From NCBI GenBank assembly GCA_000697055.1, contig JNDT01002246.1:62001-126000 (forward strand): a stretch of DNA of 64,000 nt, in the 5' to 3' direction. Of the stretch, positions 1 through 62,357 are shown piece by piece. Below the pieces are notes generated by a model. The model was not told the DNA's origin and ran no database searches. It saw only the letters and a program-made list of their open reading frames with translations. Each line of letters opens with the position of its first letter. Positions within the stretch are counted from its first letter, which is position 1. The stretch comes from Saksenaea vasiformis B4078. Lineage: Eukaryota; Mucoromycota; Mucoromycetes; Mucorales; Saksenaeaceae. The translations under genes were made by a program, and so were the position numbers.

Positions 1-74
1 TATTTTGTTATTAATTATTTCGCTGATACTAGCATCCCACTACCTCAACATGTACATTTGACGTTTTAAGCGTT

Positions 75-210
75 ATTACTGTTTTTCCCAAAATGAATGT
101 TGCAAAGGAAAGAAAAAAAGATGTCGTTAGCGAACTACAAAAATGGAAATCGATGGTTTTGCGATACTTACGACATTGTCTAAACGTCGCGAGCTTCTGT
201 TGCTCGGATT
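75..210. repeat. Left arm of inverted repeat flanking Fanzor locus 1
   Basis: This stretch matches the reverse complement of 4452-4642 in two blocks: 75-144 against about 4574-4642, and 161-210 against about 4452-4502. The right arm carries about 71 extra bases (4503-4573) where the left has about 16. Read on the plus strand, the outer block encodes the same peptide tail as the ALDH C-terminus ([15 protein letters not shown]...). Read on the minus strand, the inner block encodes the last nine Fanzor codons (IRATEARDV and stop). The few differences in both blocks fall at codon third positions. The repeat could be a transposon terminus, or the edge of an inverted duplication of a Fanzor/ALDH tail-to-tail junction. 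Confidence 0.85.
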
Positions 211-3200
211 GGTTCGAAGTTGTGATTGAATATCGGTGGACGACTCGTTGGCTGGTGGGCACCTTCAATCGCCAGCATGGCCAACGCGTGGATATTTCTT
301 GCAGCGTTCAAATCTCGTTGCCAAATGCGTGAGCGGCTGTTGCATACTACCACCGAATGCAAGTTCGATTCTTCTATTTGCAAGTTGTCCAACGACCTCG
401 TTCCACAGATCCTGCAGACTTTGCTTGAATATGATTCATTTACAGACACCATGATCAAATGCCCTTCTGTCTCTGCTCGTTTCAGCAACTTCCGAAGTCT
501 CTTTGCCAGAGCGTGGTTTCCCCCTGAATGTACGCCGATCGAACCGTCCGTCACCGACACAGACTACATTTACCACATCATCGTGGGTGCGAACGAACTC
601 TGCCTTGCGCCATTTGTTACTAAGAGAACATGGCATGAATCAGTTTTGTCTTTCAGACTTCTATTAAAACACGCAACTTACGGTTTGGGGACGGTTTGGG
701 CTTGGGCAACGGGTGGCGTCCGGTGCTAGTCCTTGCTGCAAGTACTTCTTGGCTCACAATGCTCGGACCTGCATTATACTTCTTGCCACCTCGGAGAAAT
801 ATGTTCACCAGTTCGTCATCCACCTTTTGGCGCCCACGGTAGTTAAGGAAACGGAGCTTTTGGACCTCGATGCCATAGAATTGGGTTAATACAGGCAGAC
901 GCTCCAGAAGGCCAGCAATGTATTCATCCAATCTTGCAAGATCCGTTGTTTTGGCTGTGGATATTGCGCTTTCAATACGATCAATGCCTTGTGCTTTCTT
1001 CCACCGCATGATCTTGGTGTTTGTCTTTTTGAATCCTGCCTTAACATAATACTCTGCTGCCGAAAATTTTCGCACTTGGTGTCGATGGTTGCCCACATGT
1101 TCTGGGTGGGCATAAACGTCCCTATCACTGTCATCAACGCCAACAAATACTTCATTGACTCCCGGATCCACTCCCCAGATTTTGCAGTGTTGGAGATCGT
1201 CCAAATTGATATCGTCTAATGCAAGGGATGGCAACTCGTCTTCTGGTACAGGTTTGAGAAATATAAAGGAAGTGGCATAGCCGTCCGTGAGAAAGTCATT
1301 TTGGAAGATGCCGTGTCTAAACCAAACAAATCAGCGCCTTGCGTGTTTTTTACTTCATCTTACCGCTTCATTTTGCCCATATCAAACATGTTGAAATTGG
1401 TATGTGGGCGATCGACAGGTACAGGGGTCCCAGATCTTGCAGCGTGGTGGTCAAGACCAAAGTGACGGAGGATGGTTCCCATGGTCTCATGGTCAATGCT
1501 GATATACTTTAGAGTAAGACCAGGCACAGGGGCAAGGGTGAACAACCGCGTCTGTTGTCTAGTCAGATACCCAGGCGGGGTGAATACACCATTATCTAGT
1601 TGCTGCTTAGCTTCTGCGATGAACGACTGCATCTGATCGATAGAATTTTGGCTAAAGCCGACCGGAAGACGTCCATGTTCGAAGGCACGTCGTTCATTGA
1701 TGATCTTGGTGACGGCACGCACAAGATTGGTACGGCGGCGATAGTTCAGAAATGCCCATTCAGGTAAACTTGACAATTTATGGCGCGTCCATGTGAATCC
1801 GGCCTCTGTTTGCACCGTAGCTGGGAGCTCTTCTTCCTGATCGTTCCAGAGTTCCATATAACCAAGTATTTCATACAAGATTGGCAAAAACAGATGAGGA
1901 TATCTCGTCAAAGTAGCAGTCGTAGTTGACCGGTCCAGAGCAAGCTGAGAGACACCAAAGCTACCAACAGTAGTCATACTGAGAGAAGGCGATGGAGCAT
2001 CGATCGAGCCAGGCGTGAGTGCCGGGGAATAGTCCATAACTTGTGTTAATGGGTCTGATGAGGAACTTGCGACAGCTGAAGTCTGGGGTTGTTGTCTCCG
2101 GGTTAGACGTTGACGAGCGAGCCGTATTTGGTCAAAGATGTGATCCCACATATCGCTTGCTTCGTCGACCAATGCTAGTAGCGTGTCATTGAGGTCGTTG
2201 TCATCTATGTCAGCATTGTCGTCATAATAGACTGTGGGCCATTCCGGAGGGCATTTAGGGTCTTTTGTGGTAATATCGTAAACGTACTGTGCGTATGAAA
2301 ATGCTTGGCCGGTCTTGAGGCCCTGTGTGGATAAAACAAATGAGCTATCGACTTCGCCTATCCAGCTACTATACATACCGGAAATTGGCGCAGGAGAGAT
2401 GCCTGTAAATATGAGATGTAGTAACCATCAAAGTTCTCCACAATATGGTTGGTGAAGTTGGTCGCGCATTGCGAGACAGTGGACGAAAGCATATGGCTGA
2501 ACGCTACCGGTGGTTTGCCGACTGGTGATATAACCTTATTGCACCGGGCACTGGGGTGCTCTTGTATGAATTGAGAAAAGACATAAAGGAGGTCCTCCCG
2601 AAGTTCTTGTGATAATATTGCTTTGTTGGATATTTGGCCACCGAGAAGAAGCTGGAATATGCTCGTGAAGAAAACTTCGTTAAAAAAAACGGTTAAGATT
2701 GGCAGTTGAGAAGCCAAACGACGAGTCAGGTAATAAAGGAGGAAAAGATGGCTTTTGATCACAATTTTTCGGTTGAAATCCACTACGACTCTGATGCCTT
2801 CAATGAGACGGATCTTTTCCGCTTCGTCCAATATGCGTAACAGACCGTACAACCCATGCTTGATGCAGTGAGTACGTACAGTTGCACCACCAAGTAGTTC
2901 CTTCGTCTTTGTTTTCAAGCGTGGTTTATAATCCGGACAGTTTCGATTTGATGCGCGTGAATGTGTTCCTGCTGTCTCAAGTCGATATCGTTGTAATTCA
3001 AGATCGCCTTGTTGTGCTGCTTGCTTGGCGGCCCTCGTACAAGTTGGACATGGCCTCATTGGGGTATGACTCTCGGAGCGAACTCCAACTTCTCGTTCAT
3101 CGCGGGCTCCCCTCTTTTCTTTCTTCTCGTCGGACGATTGCTTCCTTTTTGTTGTACGTCGAGATTTTCCTCGACGTTGGCGCTTCCGCTCTAGACGAGA

Positions 3201-3372
3201 AAGAGTTATATTCGAGCACTGTTTTAGCAGATATTGTACCTGGTTCGTCCCGACCCGTTCCTTCCTCGTCAGTAGTCTCTGCACCCTGCTGTCGTCCTTG
3301 TTCTTCCTGTTCCAATCGTTGTTTCTTTTCTAACTTCTTTCTTTTGATGAATTCACGAACAGTGCGTGACAT
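180..3372 (-). CDS. Fanzor RNA-guided nuclease (eukaryotic TnpB homologue), probably a decaying copy
   Basis: Fanzor proteins are eukaryotic TnpB relatives that cut DNA guided by an omega-RNA. I splice five exons: 3372-3240, 3190-2379, 2322-1364, 1316-682 and 599-180, with introns of 47-82 bp, all GT-AG, giving about 985 codons. Visible in order: a basic N-terminus, a Cys/His knuckle-like segment (CPTC, then HSRASNRNCPDYKPR, about 3000-2900), a long helical region, the LTDGYATSFIF strand (about 1290), RuvC-I WGVDPGVNE (Asp near 1167), RuvC-II-like VCVGDGRF (about 560), VNESYSSKVC carrying a Glu near 437, a zinc ribbon, and RuvC-III WQRDLNAARN (Asp near 314). The canonical RuvC-II Glu is absent; the Glu before the zinc ribbon fits the relocated Glu described for Fanzor. 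Damage: one extra base in a C/G run at 520-524 shifts the frame between RuvC-II and the zinc ribbon, and the second CxxC pair has lost a Cys (CNSRSRIW). Family assignment is firm; activity is doubtful. Confidence 0.88.
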
Positions 3373-3374
3373 GA

Positions 3375-3812
3375 GGATAAAGAACACAATTGAGAGGGAA
3401 AGGACTGATAGGTTTATAAAAGACAAAGAAGAGAAACAGCATGCCTCAGAAAAAGAAAAAGGGTTTGCGTTGAACCAATCGGAGCGCACGGATACCGATG
3501 GATCAGAAAAAAATGATGCATGATACTTCCTGAATAAAGCTAGTAAGTATGTTGAGCCATCAAAGACAAAGAAAAGAAACAATACCTAAAAAAACGAGAC
3601 TGCATCAAGCTACTTAGTAGACCAATCAGAGCCCACGGATGCCAACGGATCAGAAAAGGAAGTTACATGATACTTCCTGAATAAAGCTAGTAAGGATGTT
3701 GAGCCGTCAAAGACAAAGAAAAGAACAATACCGAAAAAAACGAGATTGCGTCAAGTTACTTAGTAGACCAATCGGAGCATATGGGTGCCACCGAATCAGA
3801 AAAAACACCTTG
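3375..3812. repeat. 147-bp tandem repeat, about three copies, upstream of Fanzor locus 1
   Basis: Two well-matched units start at 3519 and 3666 with the shared opening CATGATACTTCCTGAATAAA, giving a period of 147 bp. A more diverged third unit runs from about 3375 to 3518 (shared ACAAAGAA, CCAATCGGAGCGCACGGAT and GGATCAGAAAA blocks). The array begins almost at the Fanzor start codon (3372), so it occupies the Fanzor promoter/5' region and the space up to the divergent small ORF. Its function is unknown; promoter repeats or internal element repeats are both possible. Confidence 0.85.
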
Positions 3813-3974
3813 AATCTAGTTTCTGAGCATGGTGTGCTATACCAAACAGCGCTCCCACAGTCTAAACGGATTTATCAAAACGTTGCTGGATTTTCTCGAT
3901 TACCATATCTGACATTTATTTTCATTCACACTAGCACTTACGCAACTCACAACATATACGAAAATTCGATTATC

Positions 3975-4223
3975 ATGGTCCTGCTTCAATTCATACGAGA
4001 TTATTCGAAGACATATCCGCACACAGAACACAAAGTGGAGCATGTCATTCATGATCCAGTTACAGGAATTTCGAGAACAACGATATCCACTTTTACAGGC
4101 CTAATCAACTGCATCTTTAGTTGTCTGACTGCCCTGTTTTCTTTTTTCTTTTTTTACCAATATCTAGAAGAAAGCTTCATTAGATTGCGCGCCATTATGG
4201 AAAAACTGACGGACAATACGTAA
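3975..4223 (+). CDS. Putative small membrane protein inside the Fanzor element
   Basis: An 82-residue ORF starting at the ATG at 3975 (MVLLQFIRDYSKTYPH...) has a hydrophilic N-terminal half and one strongly hydrophobic segment (about residues 40-62, LINCIFSCLTALFSFFFFY), then a short charged tail. It lies between the inverted-repeat arms and diverges from Fanzor across the tandem repeats. The open frame extends upstream to 3696, but that part consists of the tandem repeat, so the later Met is the better start. I recognise no family. It may be element cargo or chance; the T-rich stretch alone could make a false transmembrane segment. Confidence 0.3.
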   Translation: MVLLQFIRDYSKTYPHTEHKVEHVIHDPVTGISRTTISTFTGLINCIFSCLTALFSFFFFYQYLEESFIRLRAIMEKLTDNT

Positions 4224-4451
4224 GGAAGCTGAGAAAGTGAATGACAGGAAATACCAATTTTGAACACTCTCCCCATAACTTCCCCGTGCTGCCACGCCCC
4301 GTGTTGCTCGGTAATTCTTAGTATTAGACTGCAGTATCCAGTATTAAAGGGAGCGTTGGATGGCAATGATCGCCTACTATACTAAAAAGGGCTGAGTCGC
4401 ATTCACAAACTCACGTCCACATGTCCTCTCTGTGAAGATTGAAAATCAAAT

Positions 4452-4642
4452 AATCCGAGCAACAGAAGCTCGTGACGTTTAGACAATGTCGTAAGTATTG
4501 CCAAAAAAAGAAAAATAGGAAGTTGAGAACTTCGATTGGAATAGGTGAGTGTAAACAGATCGAAGCTGAATTTCATTTTTGTAGTTCGCTAACGACATCT
4601 TTTTTTCTTTCCTTTGCGACATTCATTTTGGGAAACACTGTA
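4452..4642. repeat. Right arm of inverted repeat flanking Fanzor locus 1
   Basis: Reverse-complement partner of 75-210. On the plus strand, 4454-4483 encodes the same nine Fanzor terminal residues plus stop, with one synonymous change, although no other Fanzor sequence precedes it here. On the minus strand, 4573-4642 encodes the ALDH C-terminus. The 71-bp segment at 4503-4573 is unique to this arm and lies just beyond the ALDH stop. Confidence 0.85.
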
Positions 4643-6743
4643 ATTTGACCTTTTTTAAAGATGACGTTCTTGCTGGCAACAAGAGCCTTGAACAATGTCT
4701 GTATCTTGGCTCCAACAGATTCGGGGAGTCCATTGATAAACAAGGAAATGGCAGTGTATTTGTCAGCTGTGTAGGGTGGGTACCTGACCGAAAGTACACT
4801 TTCCAATCCAGCCGATCTGATCATCGTCGATCTTTCATGTGTGAAGGTATCAAACGATTTGTCCCCATGATAAGATCCCATTCCGGAGGGACCAACACCA
4901 CCAAATGGCAAGGACAGTTCTTGGAGATGCATCAATGTATCATTGACTAATGCACCGCCAGAATTGGTCGAATCAAGAACTATGTATAATGTCAGAACCC
5001 CTGAAAATCACAAGGAAAATACATACTCTTATTATATACGGCGGGGTCACCGCTGAAAATGTACAGCGCCAACGGATGATCCCTGCAAGATAAAGTATGG
5101 ATTTACACTTCTTCTTATCCTTAAGCGTCGTACCTGTCATTAACAATGTCGATGGCTTCATCCATGTTTTCGACTGTAACAAAGGGTAAGATAGGTCCTA
5201 TCAACCCATGTCATCAGTATGTATGTTTTTCGTATTAAAAAAAATAATGTTCTGTACCGAAAATCTCTTGTTGCATAAGAGTAGCGTTATTTGTCACCGG
5301 GCAAACCACAGTAGGTTCAATGTACAGATCGTCTCTGTCAGTCTTGCCGCCTAGGACGACTGTGGATGGATCACAGCTATCCAGTAATCCTTTGAGACGA
5401 TCGAATTGACGATGGTTGACGATACGGCCGTAAGAATCTGATTTTTGCGGGTGTTCACCGTAGAACTGACGAATAGCGTTTTGACATGCAGATGCTAACC
5501 GATCAGCCTTGTCTTTTTCTACCAACACGTAATCCGGTGCAACACAGGTCTTTGATTCATCCACCGTCAGCCAGAGCTAAAACGTTCTTTTTCTTTTATA
5601 TATATAATTTAATTTACCTGTCCGTTATTGAAAAATTTTCCAAACACAAGACGATTGGCAACAACGTCTAGGTCCGCATCGGATGCAACAAAGGCGGGTC
5701 TAAATAATCAATCGCAGTGTGAGCCAATCAAAACAAAAGGCCGAGTTAAGTTCATTACGATTTTCCACCCAGTTCAAGAGTGACAGGTGTAAGGTGTTGA
5801 GCTGCAGCGGTCATGACAATACGTCCCACCATACCATTGCCGGTGTAGAAAATATGATCCAACTGTTGTTCTGGAGAAAATGCATGAGAAATGCACGTCG
5901 TCATGTCATGGTGATTACCCAGCAATACTGTTGTTTCTTCAACGGCACCGTTGATCACTCTATAAGCACGTTCGTCCAGGTATTTTGGCAGAAGACGAGC
6001 CATGGTTACAGCTGTATGCGCAGACACTTCCGAAGGCTAGGTGCATACACTCAGTACATGCGAGATATTTTGCATTTTTTGTTTTACCTTTAACACAACA
6101 CAGTTACCAGCAGCAATAGCCCCTACTGCAGGCATCAAAAGTAGATTGACCTAAACTAACAGTTTAAGTAACTAGGATAGCATGTAACAGTTGGACATAT
6201 TACAGGATAATTCCATGCACCTGCCCAGCACGGAATTCAGGGTTAACTGATGTATGTTTATCGTGATTCCGTTGCCACTTACCAATGACGAGAACAACAC
6301 CTTTGGCTTCCTTCCGAATACATGTCTTATCCATGCTATTCATCAGGAAACGTTTTGATGTATAAGTCGGTTTGGCCAGTCGATCCATATTCTGACAAAA
6401 AGAAAGAGAGAGTAAGCAAGGATGATGAAAGGGACGTTGGCATTTGTCACCTTGATCATATATTTGCATTCATCCACAACAGACGCGATCTCGCCTATAG
6501 TACATTCCATTTTGTGTTTGCGAAGATCTTTCCATACTGCGTCTTCAAAATCACTAGCATTTTCCTCGAGACAGTCAATGAGTTTTTGTAACTGTTGTTT
6601 GCGAAACGCAAGATCCTTTGTGATGCCTGACAGACCGTTAGTAAGGGTTTATAGGGACCGTACTCACCTGTCTTGAAGTTCTCGCGCAGTTTGGCAACGA
6701 TAGTGGGAATAGCTCCCTTTGGGGTGTAGGTTAGATCAGCCAT
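4573..6743 (-). CDS. Class-3 (fatty) aldehyde dehydrogenase
   Basis: NAD(P)-dependent oxidation of aldehydes, probably medium- or long-chain, to acids. The start ATG at 6741-6743 opens [20 protein letters not shown]. Splicing out about seven short introns gives a full-length protein: the N-terminal helical region ([20 protein letters not shown]), [28 protein letters not shown] (NAD site), FYTGN, catalytic Glu in LELGGKS (about 5755), catalytic Cys in [14 protein letters not shown] (about 5545), QEIFGPILPFV, and [16 protein letters not shown] (about 4900). The tail [15 protein letters not shown]... is coded by the inverted-repeat arm and is duplicated at the left edge of the window. It is downstream of, and convergent with, the orphan Fanzor tail at 4454-4483. 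Confidence 0.92.
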
Positions 6744-17764: not shown

Positions 17765-19711
17765 CTATGCTTGCTTTTCGAATTCAAATGGCCTAGCACC
17801 GTCGTTCTCGCGCATGTACCAGAAGATATGGAGGGTGTTCCTTGCGGCGTTCACGTCCCTATTCCAGATTGTGCGACATGTTTGGCAACGTTTCACAGCG
17901 TGGAGGGCTGGTTCCAGCCGGTCAAGAAAATCTGTTTCCGCATGTACAGAGGACATACTTTGCTGAATCTGTTGTGTATGCTGACCACGCCTGCAAAGGT
18001 TGGAGCACTCTTGGCTGATCCTGAATTCGTTGATGAAGACCATCGTGACGTATTGCGAGAGTTTGCGGCGAAAAGTCTCGACAGGGACTGGTCGATGTCC
18101 CACCTGCGCATGGCTGAATTCCGCACTTCCATATGCCACAACGGTGTCTTCTCTCCTGTTCCTACTGCCCCTCACGCGCATACATAGTTCATGAAGTGCC
18201 CGCTGTGACCAACGATAGGTGGTCCAGTGCAACGTTCGTTCTCGGGTATAAAATTGGAAAAGACGCTCGAGGTGCGGAAAGATGGAGCGAAGGTTCTCCG
18301 CAAACACTTGCTGGTCCACCGTCTTCGATGTGGTAATGTAGCAGTGCTACAGATAGGTCTTCATGACCTTGTGCGCGGCTTGGCTCATAGTTAGCGTCGA
18401 TTAAGATAGCAACGATATTGTATACAGACGCATTCATATAAAAGGACCAAATCCTAAATCCAGAGTCCCCACGTTTTTATCCTGAGAAAACGGTACTTAC
18501 AATTCCTAAAGAACATCTCGAAAACTCGCGTCCTCGCCCTCACCCCCTATGCCTACGAATCCGATCTTCGTAAGTTAATAGCGACGTTGGCCATGGGTTG
18601 TGCTATTACAGGTAATCCCTGATTGGGTCTCCTGTATGTCGGGATTGTGGATACGATGCGTGCGTCGCCGCGAGGAAGCTTTGTTGTGGAAAGCGAGTTC
18701 ATGCCGTTCCTTCGCGGATATGTGCAGGTTTTGCCTGGGGACGACTTCTCGATCAGCGCAAGCATTGCTTGTAGCTACTAAGTCTGTCAAACCTGGGTCT
18801 GCCCCAATCACTCGCGTGTCAGGGCCAATAGGTACTTTGGTTGGATTCAACGGCTTGCGCTTCGGTCGTTTGGGCCTTGTATACAAGATGCTTGTGCCAA
18901 TTCCATCCGTGCTGATATGGCATTTGAACCACTTTTGATGTCCAGCTTGATCTTCGTCTTCAGAGCCAGGCTTCCGGACGCCTCGGGGGTCTGGAGAAAT
19001 CGAATGCTTCCGTCCACCACCTGATCCTGTTAACGTGAAAGCCATGTCTTGAGTCAATCAGTCGGTGCGCAGCCGGATTGCCTCTAGTAGCCCATAGCAG
19101 TAACTCACGAAAAGCTCGGGTGTCGATATCAATGTATCGCTGTGTGAAAAAATGCTGTGGTACCGCATGGTACAGACGACTGGGATCTCGACGTTGTAGG
19201 AACTTCTTAGGTCGAAAGGTACCATTGCGGATCTTTTCTCTTGTTCGACGGACCTTACGATGGGAAGACTTCTGTTAAATCCCGTTCTTGTATGATGGCC
19301 TGGATAATTTCAGCCTCCAAACGTCTACGTTCGGTCATTGAAAGGGCCACAGGCTGTATTCCCCATTTCTGAGTCGGCTTGTTGACAAACCTTGATGTCC
19401 ATCGGCGGCTGGGACGTTCGGCAGGTTGTGCGATTGGAACAGCATGGGGAAGATTTTCAAGAGCACCCAGCATTGATAAGAAAAAGGGGTAATACTCCCA
19501 TGTTTGCTTCTTTACTGTCTTTTTTGTCATAGGCAGTGGACCAACATTGCCGCATAAGTGGTCGTAAATCTCTTGCATAGATCTGAATTTGTTGTATGTA
19601 AAACTTGGCGTTCCCCGAACGTGAATTCCATTCACGATTTTGACGCACAGAAGTAGGACGTATCCAGCGTCCTATTTCTCCCTCTTCTTCTTCCTCGTCC
19701 AAATCGTCCAA
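17765..19711 (-). CDS. Second Fanzor locus (distinct subfamily), exon structure partly unresolved
   Basis: Segments in order on the minus strand: an exon from about 19671 (DAGYVLLLCVKIVNGIHVRG, then FTYNKFRSMQ); a segment at 19057-18600 with the IGADPGLTDLVATS RuvC-I motif (Asp near 18798), preceded by FKCHISTDGIGTS; then 18360-17765 with YTRERTLHWTTYRWSQ, VVAYGSAEFSHAQVGH (RuvC-II region, about 18130), FINEFRISQEC with the relocated Glu near 18028, a zinc ribbon (CSNLC and CQTC, about 18005-17875) and RuvC-III WNRDVNAARN (Asp near 17857). All catalytic positions are present. An intron of about 60 bp (GTGAGTTACTGC...CTCAAG) fits between the first two segments. The region 18360-18600 has stops in every frame I tried, so it holds either unrecognised introns or disabling changes. 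Sequence differs strongly from locus 1, so it is not a recent duplicate. Confidence 0.8.
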
Positions 19712-60590: not shown

Positions 60591-62357
60591 AAGTCAAGTC
60601 ATGAGGAAGGATATAGAGGTCCGAATTGGTTATTTATCTTCTGTTTCGAACATACTATGACAAGCCACTTTTACCTGCATTCACGTATAGATACACACTC
60701 GTTCAGACTTGTTATTTCGCGTTACTATTTCGAAAGAAAAAGAGAAGAAAAAAGATAAAACAGAGTTTGGCAAGTCTTCATAAACCTCAAAAGCATTTTG
60801 AACGCACGTGAGTCATTTATCCATTTGCTTTGCATGAAGGCTCGACGATTTCTGGCTCCGAATCGTGGGGGGGGGAGGACAGGCTGTCTTTCCAGAGAAT
60901 CTTTTGCGGAAAATAGGCTGATTTGATTGGGTTAGCTTTCCCAATATGAGTCAAACTGTCTAGACACTTCTAGCATCGTAATAAGAAAAAGAACTGGAAA
61001 CAACTTGCCATCTATCTTTATGTACAATTCAGTTGGGTAAATGCACGCAAAAGTTGATGATGTATAGGTGAATAAAAGCCTACTGCTTATCAGTTAAATC
61101 GTCCATCAATCTATTATCCTGGTTGAACCAGTTGGTGATAGCTATTCAACGGTAACTTTCTTACTATATGTGCTCCGATTAATTTCCCCTTTTGTCACCT
61201 CCAGATGCAGAAGGTCTTATACTGAATGGCCATATCTCTACGTATAACCAAAGTCAATGAGGAGAAAAGAGGTCCTCGATTACTTATGCTACCCGTACAG
61301 CATGGCTAATTCTTGTGCCATTGAAATGGGATGAAAGCCAAGGTTGACTATTCCTTTTTCCTCAAGATGAAAGAAATTTTGTTTGCTCTAAGTGTAAGAT
61401 ATCGTGATGATTTCTTTGGGCAAGAGGCATCCCGCAGCAAACCACGCGGCTGCACAAGCACACTTTGAAGACTATCACAACAAGCAGATAGTCAAGGAAG
61501 GCTGGTCTTAGTCAAAGCCCATGAATTCCACGTCGGTCAAGTCAGTAGTTCTTGTGAAACAACGACGTCTGAAAATGTCATTTTGACCGACAGTTAAAAT
61601 TGCATGTCATGGTAGTATGCATCAGCTGCCAATAAGTATGGTAAGGTGGTTCTTAACATCACGTCATTGTAATGTCGACCTCGATAAGCAATGATAATGA
61701 GTATCGCTCACTCTTTGTCTGTTTTTAGTGCGAACGACATACCTCTACCAACAACCGGTAACTACCGGTAGCAAATAACTACGACGTCTAAGTTTTGCCA
61801 TAAGCAGTAAAAGTGAATCTGTTGCTAGTCCTCTCTCTCCCTCTTTCCCTGTGTACCTCTCCCTTGAGCAGTTTCTCTATTTGGTGAGTATCACAAGAGG
61901 ATATCTAGCCCATTTTGGTTGAGGCTGATAATTGTTTGCTGAGCCATTTTTTATGCTACTCATGTAGATTCTGCATTCAGTAGAAACTCAAATTGGCGTA
62001 AATGAAGGACTGAATTTGTAGCCATCAGCACATAGTGGCATCAACCTCATACTGTGCTTACCTAGAAACATCTTCAAGTCTTCAGACAAGATACTGAGAG
62101 ACTATCACTAATGCAGTGAACCACTCTGATGCAAAACTCAGGTCATCCAGGAATGAGCTATTCCTGAGATTACCGCAAAACGAACTACTTTCCAGTGCAA
62201 AGGGCGTCTCAGCTTTCGGTTCCGACTTGAAAATGAAATGGTATCTAATTGACGTTGGCATTCATTCAAATTCGGCTGTTTATTTTTTCATGGCTCATTT
62301 CCATTTCTGTGAGACTAACAATATCTCCATAATAGTGAATGAGTCTCAACCACTCTA
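60591..62357. other. 1.8-kb spacer, no supported gene
   Basis: A 9-G run lies near 60868. Frames at 60573 and 62116 are short and lack motifs (the second overlaps the YOP1 gene on the other strand). Nothing else stands out. Confidence 0.5.

Follow-up and report, generated by a model that had tools for sequence, protein, structure and literature searches.

Does the minus-strand gene at the start of a 64,000-nucleotide stretch of Saksenaea vasiformis B4078 DNA still encode a Fanzor, an RNA-guided DNA endonuclease of eukaryotes, and what kind of element carries it? The stretch, called the window here, comprises positions 62001 to 126000 of contig JNDT01002246.1 (C533), and the genome that we searched amounts to 38.7 Mb in 666 contigs. 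A prediction made from the sequence alone (the original prediction) had read the locus as a five-exon Fanzor gene. Our analysis indicates that the window very probably holds a decayed Fanzor1 gene in a TA-flanked inverted-repeat transposon, whose intact ancestor would have been a nuclease of the obligate mobile element-guided activity (OMEGA) type with an AATTA target-adjacent motif (TAM), mobilized in trans. Little is known of Fanzor biology in native hosts, and in S. vasiformis dozens of insertions of one family allow a candidate TAM, a guide side, and nuclease loss to be read from sequence.

The Fanzor/TnpB profile match that the original prediction had singled out as the thing to look for is present: PF07282 matches the window gene with an E value of 3.1e-10 (40.5 bits; cut-off, 26.3). 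A read-through protein, with X placed at both breaks in the frame, matched a Hesseltinella protein of 1246 aa (P0001) far past chance (E = 7e-196), and five further proteins were matched as well. Identity to the window protein was 39% for P0001 and 38% for P0002. These first six relatives are 755 to 1246 aa long and are named hypothetical, unnamed, uncharacterized, or the like. Later searches added P0007 and P0008 to P0013, bringing the relatives fetched to 13 in all; they come from Hesseltinella vesiculosa, Mucor flavus, Absidia cylindrospora, and Helicostylum pulchrum, and the fuller ones from these four genera have a long architecture like that of the window protein. P0001 as annotated is a single protein that contains DPG, RD, the relocated Glu, and the zinc ribbon, whereas the frame of the window copy is broken.

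The best solved structures for a profile (A1) built from six relatives together with the window protein were GtFz1 (9cer; E = 1.9e-6) and SpuFz1 (8gkh; E = 5.1e-5), in keeping with the family first proposed. The collinear profile matches fall at TDG/RuvC-I and at the zinc ribbon. The GtFz1 match is made up of three collinear segments (7.8, 12.9, and 10.6 bits), each nonsignificant alone, and is weak in the recognition (REC) region; the SpuFz1 score comes from the RuvC segment, with the REC segment unmatched. The rank order of these structures is not robust, since a profile richer in Mucor sequences (A4) gave first rank to a TnpB-like protein, with SpuFz1 in third place. A PDB search with exons 1 to 4 alone gave no match up to E = 1, and the best match of the last exon was Cas12g (E = 0.008). 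TDG, DPG, and the relocated Glu are named as Fanzor1 features in sections of PMC10711439. Judged by profile ranks and by these motifs, with TDG in the wedge (WED) domain, a position nearer to Fanzor1 than to TnpB or Fanzor2 is supported. The window copy is a degenerate member of the known Fanzor1 kind.

Exons 1 to 4 (3372-682, minus strand; Table 1) give 846 open residues. In this model TDGY lies at residue 645 and the RuvC-I Asp is D685, which puts about 684 residues ahead of RuvC-I instead of the roughly 600 first estimated. WGVDPG, GDGRF, VNESYSSK, the zinc ribbon, and WQRDLNAARN follow one another on the minus strand in the order claimed. The read-through places the start of GDGRF at 863, with E903 as the relocated Glu and D944 as the Asp of QRD; the catalytic residues D685, E903, and D944 are all present there, but in the window copy they do not share a single frame with GDG. 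The four predicted introns fared in part: GT-AG sites could be placed for each of them (49, 56, 47, and 62 nt), and the first three join exons 1 to 4, but an mRNA spliced at the fourth meets a stop after 16 residues of the last exon. The GT and AG of this fourth intron are kept in the five sister copies that cover the site.

The damage was located by comparison with six long sister copies (L010 to L015), which are 87 to 96% identical to the window as measured in each copy's longest match. L012 is truncated by a contig end, and exon 1 is absent from L015. At 728/727, the window lacks 31 nt that are present in four of the five sister copies covering the place, the fifth (L014) having its own different deletion there. 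At 517, the window lacks 2 nt that all five covering copies possess. The frame of the window copy was lost through these two deletions, and because of the one at 517, GDGRF and the zinc ribbon/RuvC-III part lie in different frames. The zinc ribbon itself reads CRIC and CNSR and has three of its four Cys, the fourth of which is kept (CNSC) in 5/5 sister copies. L010, L014, and L015 have all four zinc-ribbon Cys, and so does L013, where a gap in the frame separates them; three remain in L011. Every one of the six sister copies carries at least one frame-shifting indel beyond those explained by the window's deletions, and a more distant copy, L061 (44 to 61% protein identity by segment), shows an apparent frame change in exon 2, as judged by eye. 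The window Fanzor1 copy is a decayed relic with no open reading frame that codes for the nuclease. A working five-exon gene is not supported, the frame being broken by deletions and a zinc-ribbon Cys changed to Arg.

The exons that stay open retain a record of selection. The ratio of nonsynonymous to synonymous substitution rates (omega) was computed for exons 1 to 4 without codons touching an indel. Between the window/L010/L012 and L011/L013/L015 lineages, omega was 0.14 to 0.21 at a synonymous divergence (dS) of 0.33 to 0.48 in all nine comparisons; inside the window/L010/L012 lineage it was 0.43 to 0.68 at a dS of 0.04 to 0.05 in all three. The other 9 of the 21 pairs, those inside L011/L013/L015 and all pairs with L014, gave 0.31 to 0.39. 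Low omega between the lineages and higher omega within indicate that the protein was constrained once and that the constraint has since weakened. Because omega between the two lineages of copies is as low as this, the decay of the window gene is probably recent.

The special N terminus of the original prediction turned out to be largely a trait of the family. The proposed Cys/His segment does exist, as CPTC...HSRASNRNCPDY at residues 92 to 132. When the first 300 residues of the 13 relatives were scanned, the motif was found in six (P0003, P0004, P0006, P0008, P0010, and P0011), P0006 carrying it at just one, the first, of the two sites found in P0003, and was unmatched in P0001, P0002, P0005, P0007, P0009, P0012, and P0013. 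The proteins that share it with the window copy are uncharacterized ones from Mucor and Helicostylum. For P0001 and P0002 this is because the annotated start falls inside the motif. The remaining long N terminus aligns along the Hesseltinella and Mucor relatives. From this alignment and the recurrent motif it follows that the part belongs to the family. Since most Fz1s have 600 to 700 aa, as Xu et al. state in a portion of PMC11423790, relatives of 755 to 1246 aa make this a long family. An uncharacterized subgroup is then a fair name for the family, with its uncharacterized long relatives, and not for the window copy.

What carries the gene? Fanzor1 is the sole gene recognized in the 4.56-kb element, and no transposase was recognized there. 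The inverted repeats consist of two blocks, 75-151/4568-4644 (77 nt, 94%) and 157-210/4452-4505 (54 nt, 94%). A DNA search with window positions 1 to 4700 gave at least 164 matches and one with the left inverted repeat at least 48, the 40 best candidates being scored in each case. Ends were read in 36 fetched regions (L051 to L086), yielding 50 ends (19 gene-5′, 23 gene-3′, and 8 ambiguous), and both ends were taken for 15 elements. TA adjoins 13 of the 15 ends on either side, and duplications of any other word (three bases or longer) at a given place occur in 2 of the 15 elements at most. Inverted repeats with TA ends point to a eukaryotic transposon as carrier rather than to IS607, although no search for IS607 TnpA was made. 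Because TA stands at the ends and the tips are CAGT-like, which we take to be a Tc1/mariner trait, we infer that the element belongs to the Tc1/mariner group. The genome has at least 157 DDE_3 matches, and among the matches listed none lies inside these elements, as judged by eye. The element sits within the terminal part of an aldehyde dehydrogenase-like gene (4573-6036, minus strand), which it interrupts and to which it supplies 22 codons and a stop; PF00171 matches two upstream exons of this gene, and its last exon has no Pfam match.

The flanks of the element differ sharply between its two sides. AAT stands directly outside TA at 17/19 gene-5′ ends and at 1/23 gene-3′ ends (Fisher p = 1.1e-8). 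Three of the eight ambiguous ends left out of this count also read AAT (L072, L080 minus, and L085, the last being the 3′ end of a composite on contig C265), and the second end of L060, taken as gene-5′, reads ACT. An exact-pattern search of the whole genome found AAT ahead of 6/7 TACAGT ends and 0/5 TACTGT ends. Tip and end type correspond imperfectly, with TACTG at two gene-5′ ends (L052 and L068) and TACAG at one gene-3′ end (L076). A at -3 occurs at 18/19 gene-5′ and 14/23 gene-3′ ends, and its presence on both sides may reflect a preference of the transposase; AT at -2/-1 is one-sided. The occurrence of AAT at the gene-5′ side and its near absence at the gene-3′ side fit a TAM on the one side and a variable guide on the other. 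In parts of PMC10432273, a conserved CA is described ahead of the 5′ repeat of SPu-1, and the TAM of SpuFz1 is given as CATA. By analogy, 5′-AATTA is put forward as the predicted TAM of the window family. AATTA is a concrete prediction, and the window copy itself is no candidate tool.

If the gene-5′ side bears the TAM, the guide RNA (omega-RNA) would be expected to come from the other end. Twenty-two 3′ ends were aligned, and L051, L053, L054, and L057 were then dropped because of a gap or a deviating insert. The remaining 18 share a three-helix consensus of 28 pairs, in which 95.8% of cells are paired, compared with 36 to 51% when the alignment is slid. Three consensus pairs are changed on both sides; slides of -2 and +3 give three and four such pairs. 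Window positions 1 to 6000 had no Rfam match at the gathering score. An inverted repeat and target duplication inside the guide-RNA scaffold are known from other Fanzor1s, according to passages of PMC10711439. It is conceivable, though unlikely, that each element makes two guides, both repeats carrying the scaffold sequence. Two working guides would need AAT on the 3′ side also, and its absence there speaks against the second.

In the system that these features suggest, the intact ancestor nuclease would have bound RNA from the 3′ end of the element, that is, the last part of the gene and the inverted repeat. The flank beyond this end would have been taken as the guide, and 5′-AATTA would have been recognized as the TAM. 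The nuclease would have cut alleles lacking the element, and homing would have followed, with repair templated by the occupied copy retaining or restoring the element. The transposase that moved it would have been supplied in trans and would most likely have been of the Tc1/mariner type. The window copy can no longer make a whole nuclease; its 3′ end could still supply RNA. A broader proposal, that Mucoromycota harbor a self-contained homing system in which a long Fanzor1 with a zinc-binding N-terminal arm uses an AATTA TAM, broken and ghost copies (the window's included) supply guides, and one intact nuclease elsewhere could protect all insertions, we regard as unlikely.

Could the window copy be intact after all, with an extra intron or an alternative acceptor restoring a working nuclease by unusual splicing? 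Exons 1 to 4 are wholly open, and a scan that placed a single intron downstream of RuvC-I (donor positions 900 to 431, lengths of 35 to 399 nt) yielded 65 models open to the final stop; many two-intron models stay open as well. However, none of the 65 retains GDG together with NESYSSK and the zinc ribbon, and the claim that all motifs lie on one spliced open reading frame was not borne out. Ten of the printed two-intron models do keep GDG and the zinc ribbon, but they use acceptors unlike the shared one and delete conserved residues. The sister copies, moreover, align across the break with no gap the size of an intron, and the ribbon Cys is still Arg. We consider an intact gene highly improbable. 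A rival reading of the TAM is that AAT represents the outermost bases of the element at the gene-5′ side, or else a preference of the transposase for certain targets that is tied to the orientation of the element. The frequency of A at -3 at both ends resembles a symmetric target preference, AAT also occurs at L071, L072, and L080, copies whose fetched stretch has no match to a Fanzor protein, and no empty site turned up for the 3 of 15 elements searched. Yet only AT at -2/-1 is one-sided, and the ends show TA with no other consistent duplication. In the window, CAA ATT are in-frame codons that extend the reading frame of the disrupted aldehyde dehydrogenase-like gene, and the joined flanks end that frame three residues later and give it a short end. 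An AAT that is not a TAM is thus possible but doubtful.

The same weighing applies to a further rival, in which the element was moved by a DIRS-type tyrosine-recombinase retrotransposon, since some loci join its inverted repeats to DIRS genes. On contig C265, a reverse transcriptase match (PF00078; E = 8e-22) lies between a Fanzor gene and the same right repeat, as does a tyrosine recombinase match (PF00589; E = 3.5e-5) that at 24.1 bits is below the cut-off of 27.1, and matching DNA adjoins such repeats on C611 and C266. The DIRS unit seems, however, to own its ends. Its left start, GTCGTTCC, recurs on C596, C479, and C269, and at these three loci no convincing match to the Fanzor repeat was found in 181 nt each (one 20-nt match, E = 0.007). 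Internal inverted repeats of the DIRS unit match just inside its ends, and by eye the unit joins the Fanzor repeat at varying points, as a nested insertion would. A DIRS retrotransposon as the source of the inverted repeats was rejected on this ground and is very unlikely to have moved the element.

Other observations weigh against a decayed Fanzor1 gene in a trans-mobilized transposon with an AATTA TAM. No transposase with these repeats was found, DDE_3 being the sole family searched for. Some of the frameshifts may be accounted for by assembly error. The AlphaFold model of P0003 (13 sequences) had a mean predicted local distance difference test score (pLDDT) of 43.9 and a predicted template modeling score (pTM) of 0.26, too poor to test the fold. 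The Fisher test counts separate insertions of related copies as independent, and placing the ambiguous ends by hand changes the AAT counts to about 19/22 (gene-5′) and 2/26 (gene-3′). The joined flanks of L062, L067, and L058, used as queries for an empty site, matched only their own halves, and L067 itself lacks AAT|TA; with no empty site recovered, AAT might conceivably be part of the element itself. At 21 gene-5′ ends, 92.6% of cells conform to the three-helix fold, compared with 94.9% at 24 gene-3′ ends, a comparison in which 45 of 57 matches were assigned by hand, three ambiguous ends included, and 12 were left unassigned. Because pairing is preserved almost as well at the 5′ ends, the fold may reflect the identity of the repeats alone, and covariation was set aside as proof of an omega-RNA. 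Single-sequence folding of five ends was not clearly above shuffles (z, -0.43 to -1.31).

The decayed Fanzor1 transposon read from the window has its closest described counterpart in SPu-1/SpuFz1 of Spizellomyces punctatus. As portrayed by Bao and Jurka (2013; PMC3627910, in part) and Saito et al. (2023; PMC10432273, in part), SPu-1 likewise has Fanzor1 as the sole gene between inverted repeats, a putative TA duplication, and many ghost copies. Both also have a short conserved motif outside the 5′ repeat of the gene; the SPu-1 guide RNA comes from the 3′ end (PMC10432273, in part), where the window family has a candidate only. The two differ in that SPu-1 has a single open reading frame of 633 aa, repeats of 30 to 33 nt, and several intact copies (sections of PMC3627910 and PMC10432273), while the window family has about 985 residues encoded by five exons, inverted repeats of some 135 nt, and broken copies wherever they were examined. 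Parasitella PpFz1 is another Mucorales Fanzor1 with a short AT-rich TAM, ATN, and has a RuvC insertion that binds cyclophilin (both from portions of PMC11423790); it is missing from the PDB profile matches of A1 and A4 and is likened to the window family by description alone. Fanzor1 elements of Mucor, Rhizopus, and Phycomyces are also Mucoromycota transposons, several without a transposase gene, but ROr-4, PBl-3, MCi-4, MCi-2, and MCi-5 have duplications of 9 bp, 11 to 12 bp, or 6 bp in place of the TA of the window family (PMC3627910, in part). No description of the window's Fanzor1 family was found in the literature searched (Fanzor, fungi, Mucor, DIRS), a search that mostly did not extend to subscription papers.

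Table 1. Positions of the element, the gene, and the predicted RNA and TAM features in the window
Feature	Positions	Strand	Basis or remark
Whole Fanzor element, 4.56 kb, TA at both ends (77-78, 4641-4642)	77..4642	-	Inverted repeats; ends compared over 50
Exon 1	3240..3372	-	Start codon 3372-3370; 4/5 covering sister copies without frame-shifting indel, L014 has one
Exon 2: basic tail, Cys/His motif, REC-like region	2379..3190	-	Exon model, alignment of relatives, profile match
N-terminal Cys/His segment, residues 92-132	2928..3050	-	Motif scan; coordinates by hand from exon model
Exon 3: aligns with middle N-terminal part of relatives; holds low-complexity linker	1364..2322	-	
Exon 4: TDG motif, RuvC-I WGVDPG; 31-nt deletion versus sister copies at 728/727	682..1316	-	
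Last exon, broken frame: GDGRF and zinc ribbon/RuvC-III in different frames; stop codon 182-180	180..619	-	
Zinc ribbon/TNB domain PF07282, fourth Cys is Arg here	291..497 (C533:62291-62497)	-	
Candidate omega-RNA scaffold: gene 3′ end and inverted repeat	77..211	-	Three-helix consensus, 28 pairs; not end-specific
Flank, would-be guide of omega-RNA from window copy	57..76	-	Suggested by known Fanzor layout (PMC10432273, in part); varies between copies
Mirror copy of scaffold sequence, other inverted repeat	4451..4642	+	E = 4.2e-27
Predicted TAM 5′-AATTA-3′ beside gene 5′ end	4641..4645	-	Flank counts and exact patterns
Imperfect tandem repeat, period ~147 nt, between start codon and 5′ inverted repeat	3474..3803	.	

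The genome contains further sequences related to the element. A DIRS-type retrotransposon is apparently nested in Fanzor repeat regions at L052/L089/L085 (C265:1900-11300), L083 (C611), L084 (C266), and L090 (C271). Besides its reverse transcriptase (E = 8e-22), this unit has tyrosine recombinase and Dam-like matches below the Pfam cut-off, along with its internal inverted repeats, and the stretches on C611 and C266 may be the halves of a single copy. A deletion derivative of about 1.4 to 1.6 kb has been amplified and is present at L063, L064, L067, and L074 (cut by a contig end) and also at L062, L065, and L066. It joins exon 1 and the basic stretch to the zinc ribbon, has WQGD for WQRD, and is open over 140 codons in four copies. 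A selected small protein encoded by L063, L064, L067, and L074 was considered and rejected, with omega at 0.59 to 1.50 (6 pairs). Genome-wide, at least 137 matches to the PF07282 TNB zinc ribbon were found, some with identical scores on separate contigs, which marks the genome as rich in Fanzor-like families. The window holds a second, different Fanzor-like gene at 17765-19671 on the minus strand, with TDG, ADPG, NEF, and NRD on several open frames and a PF07282 match at E = 8e-7.

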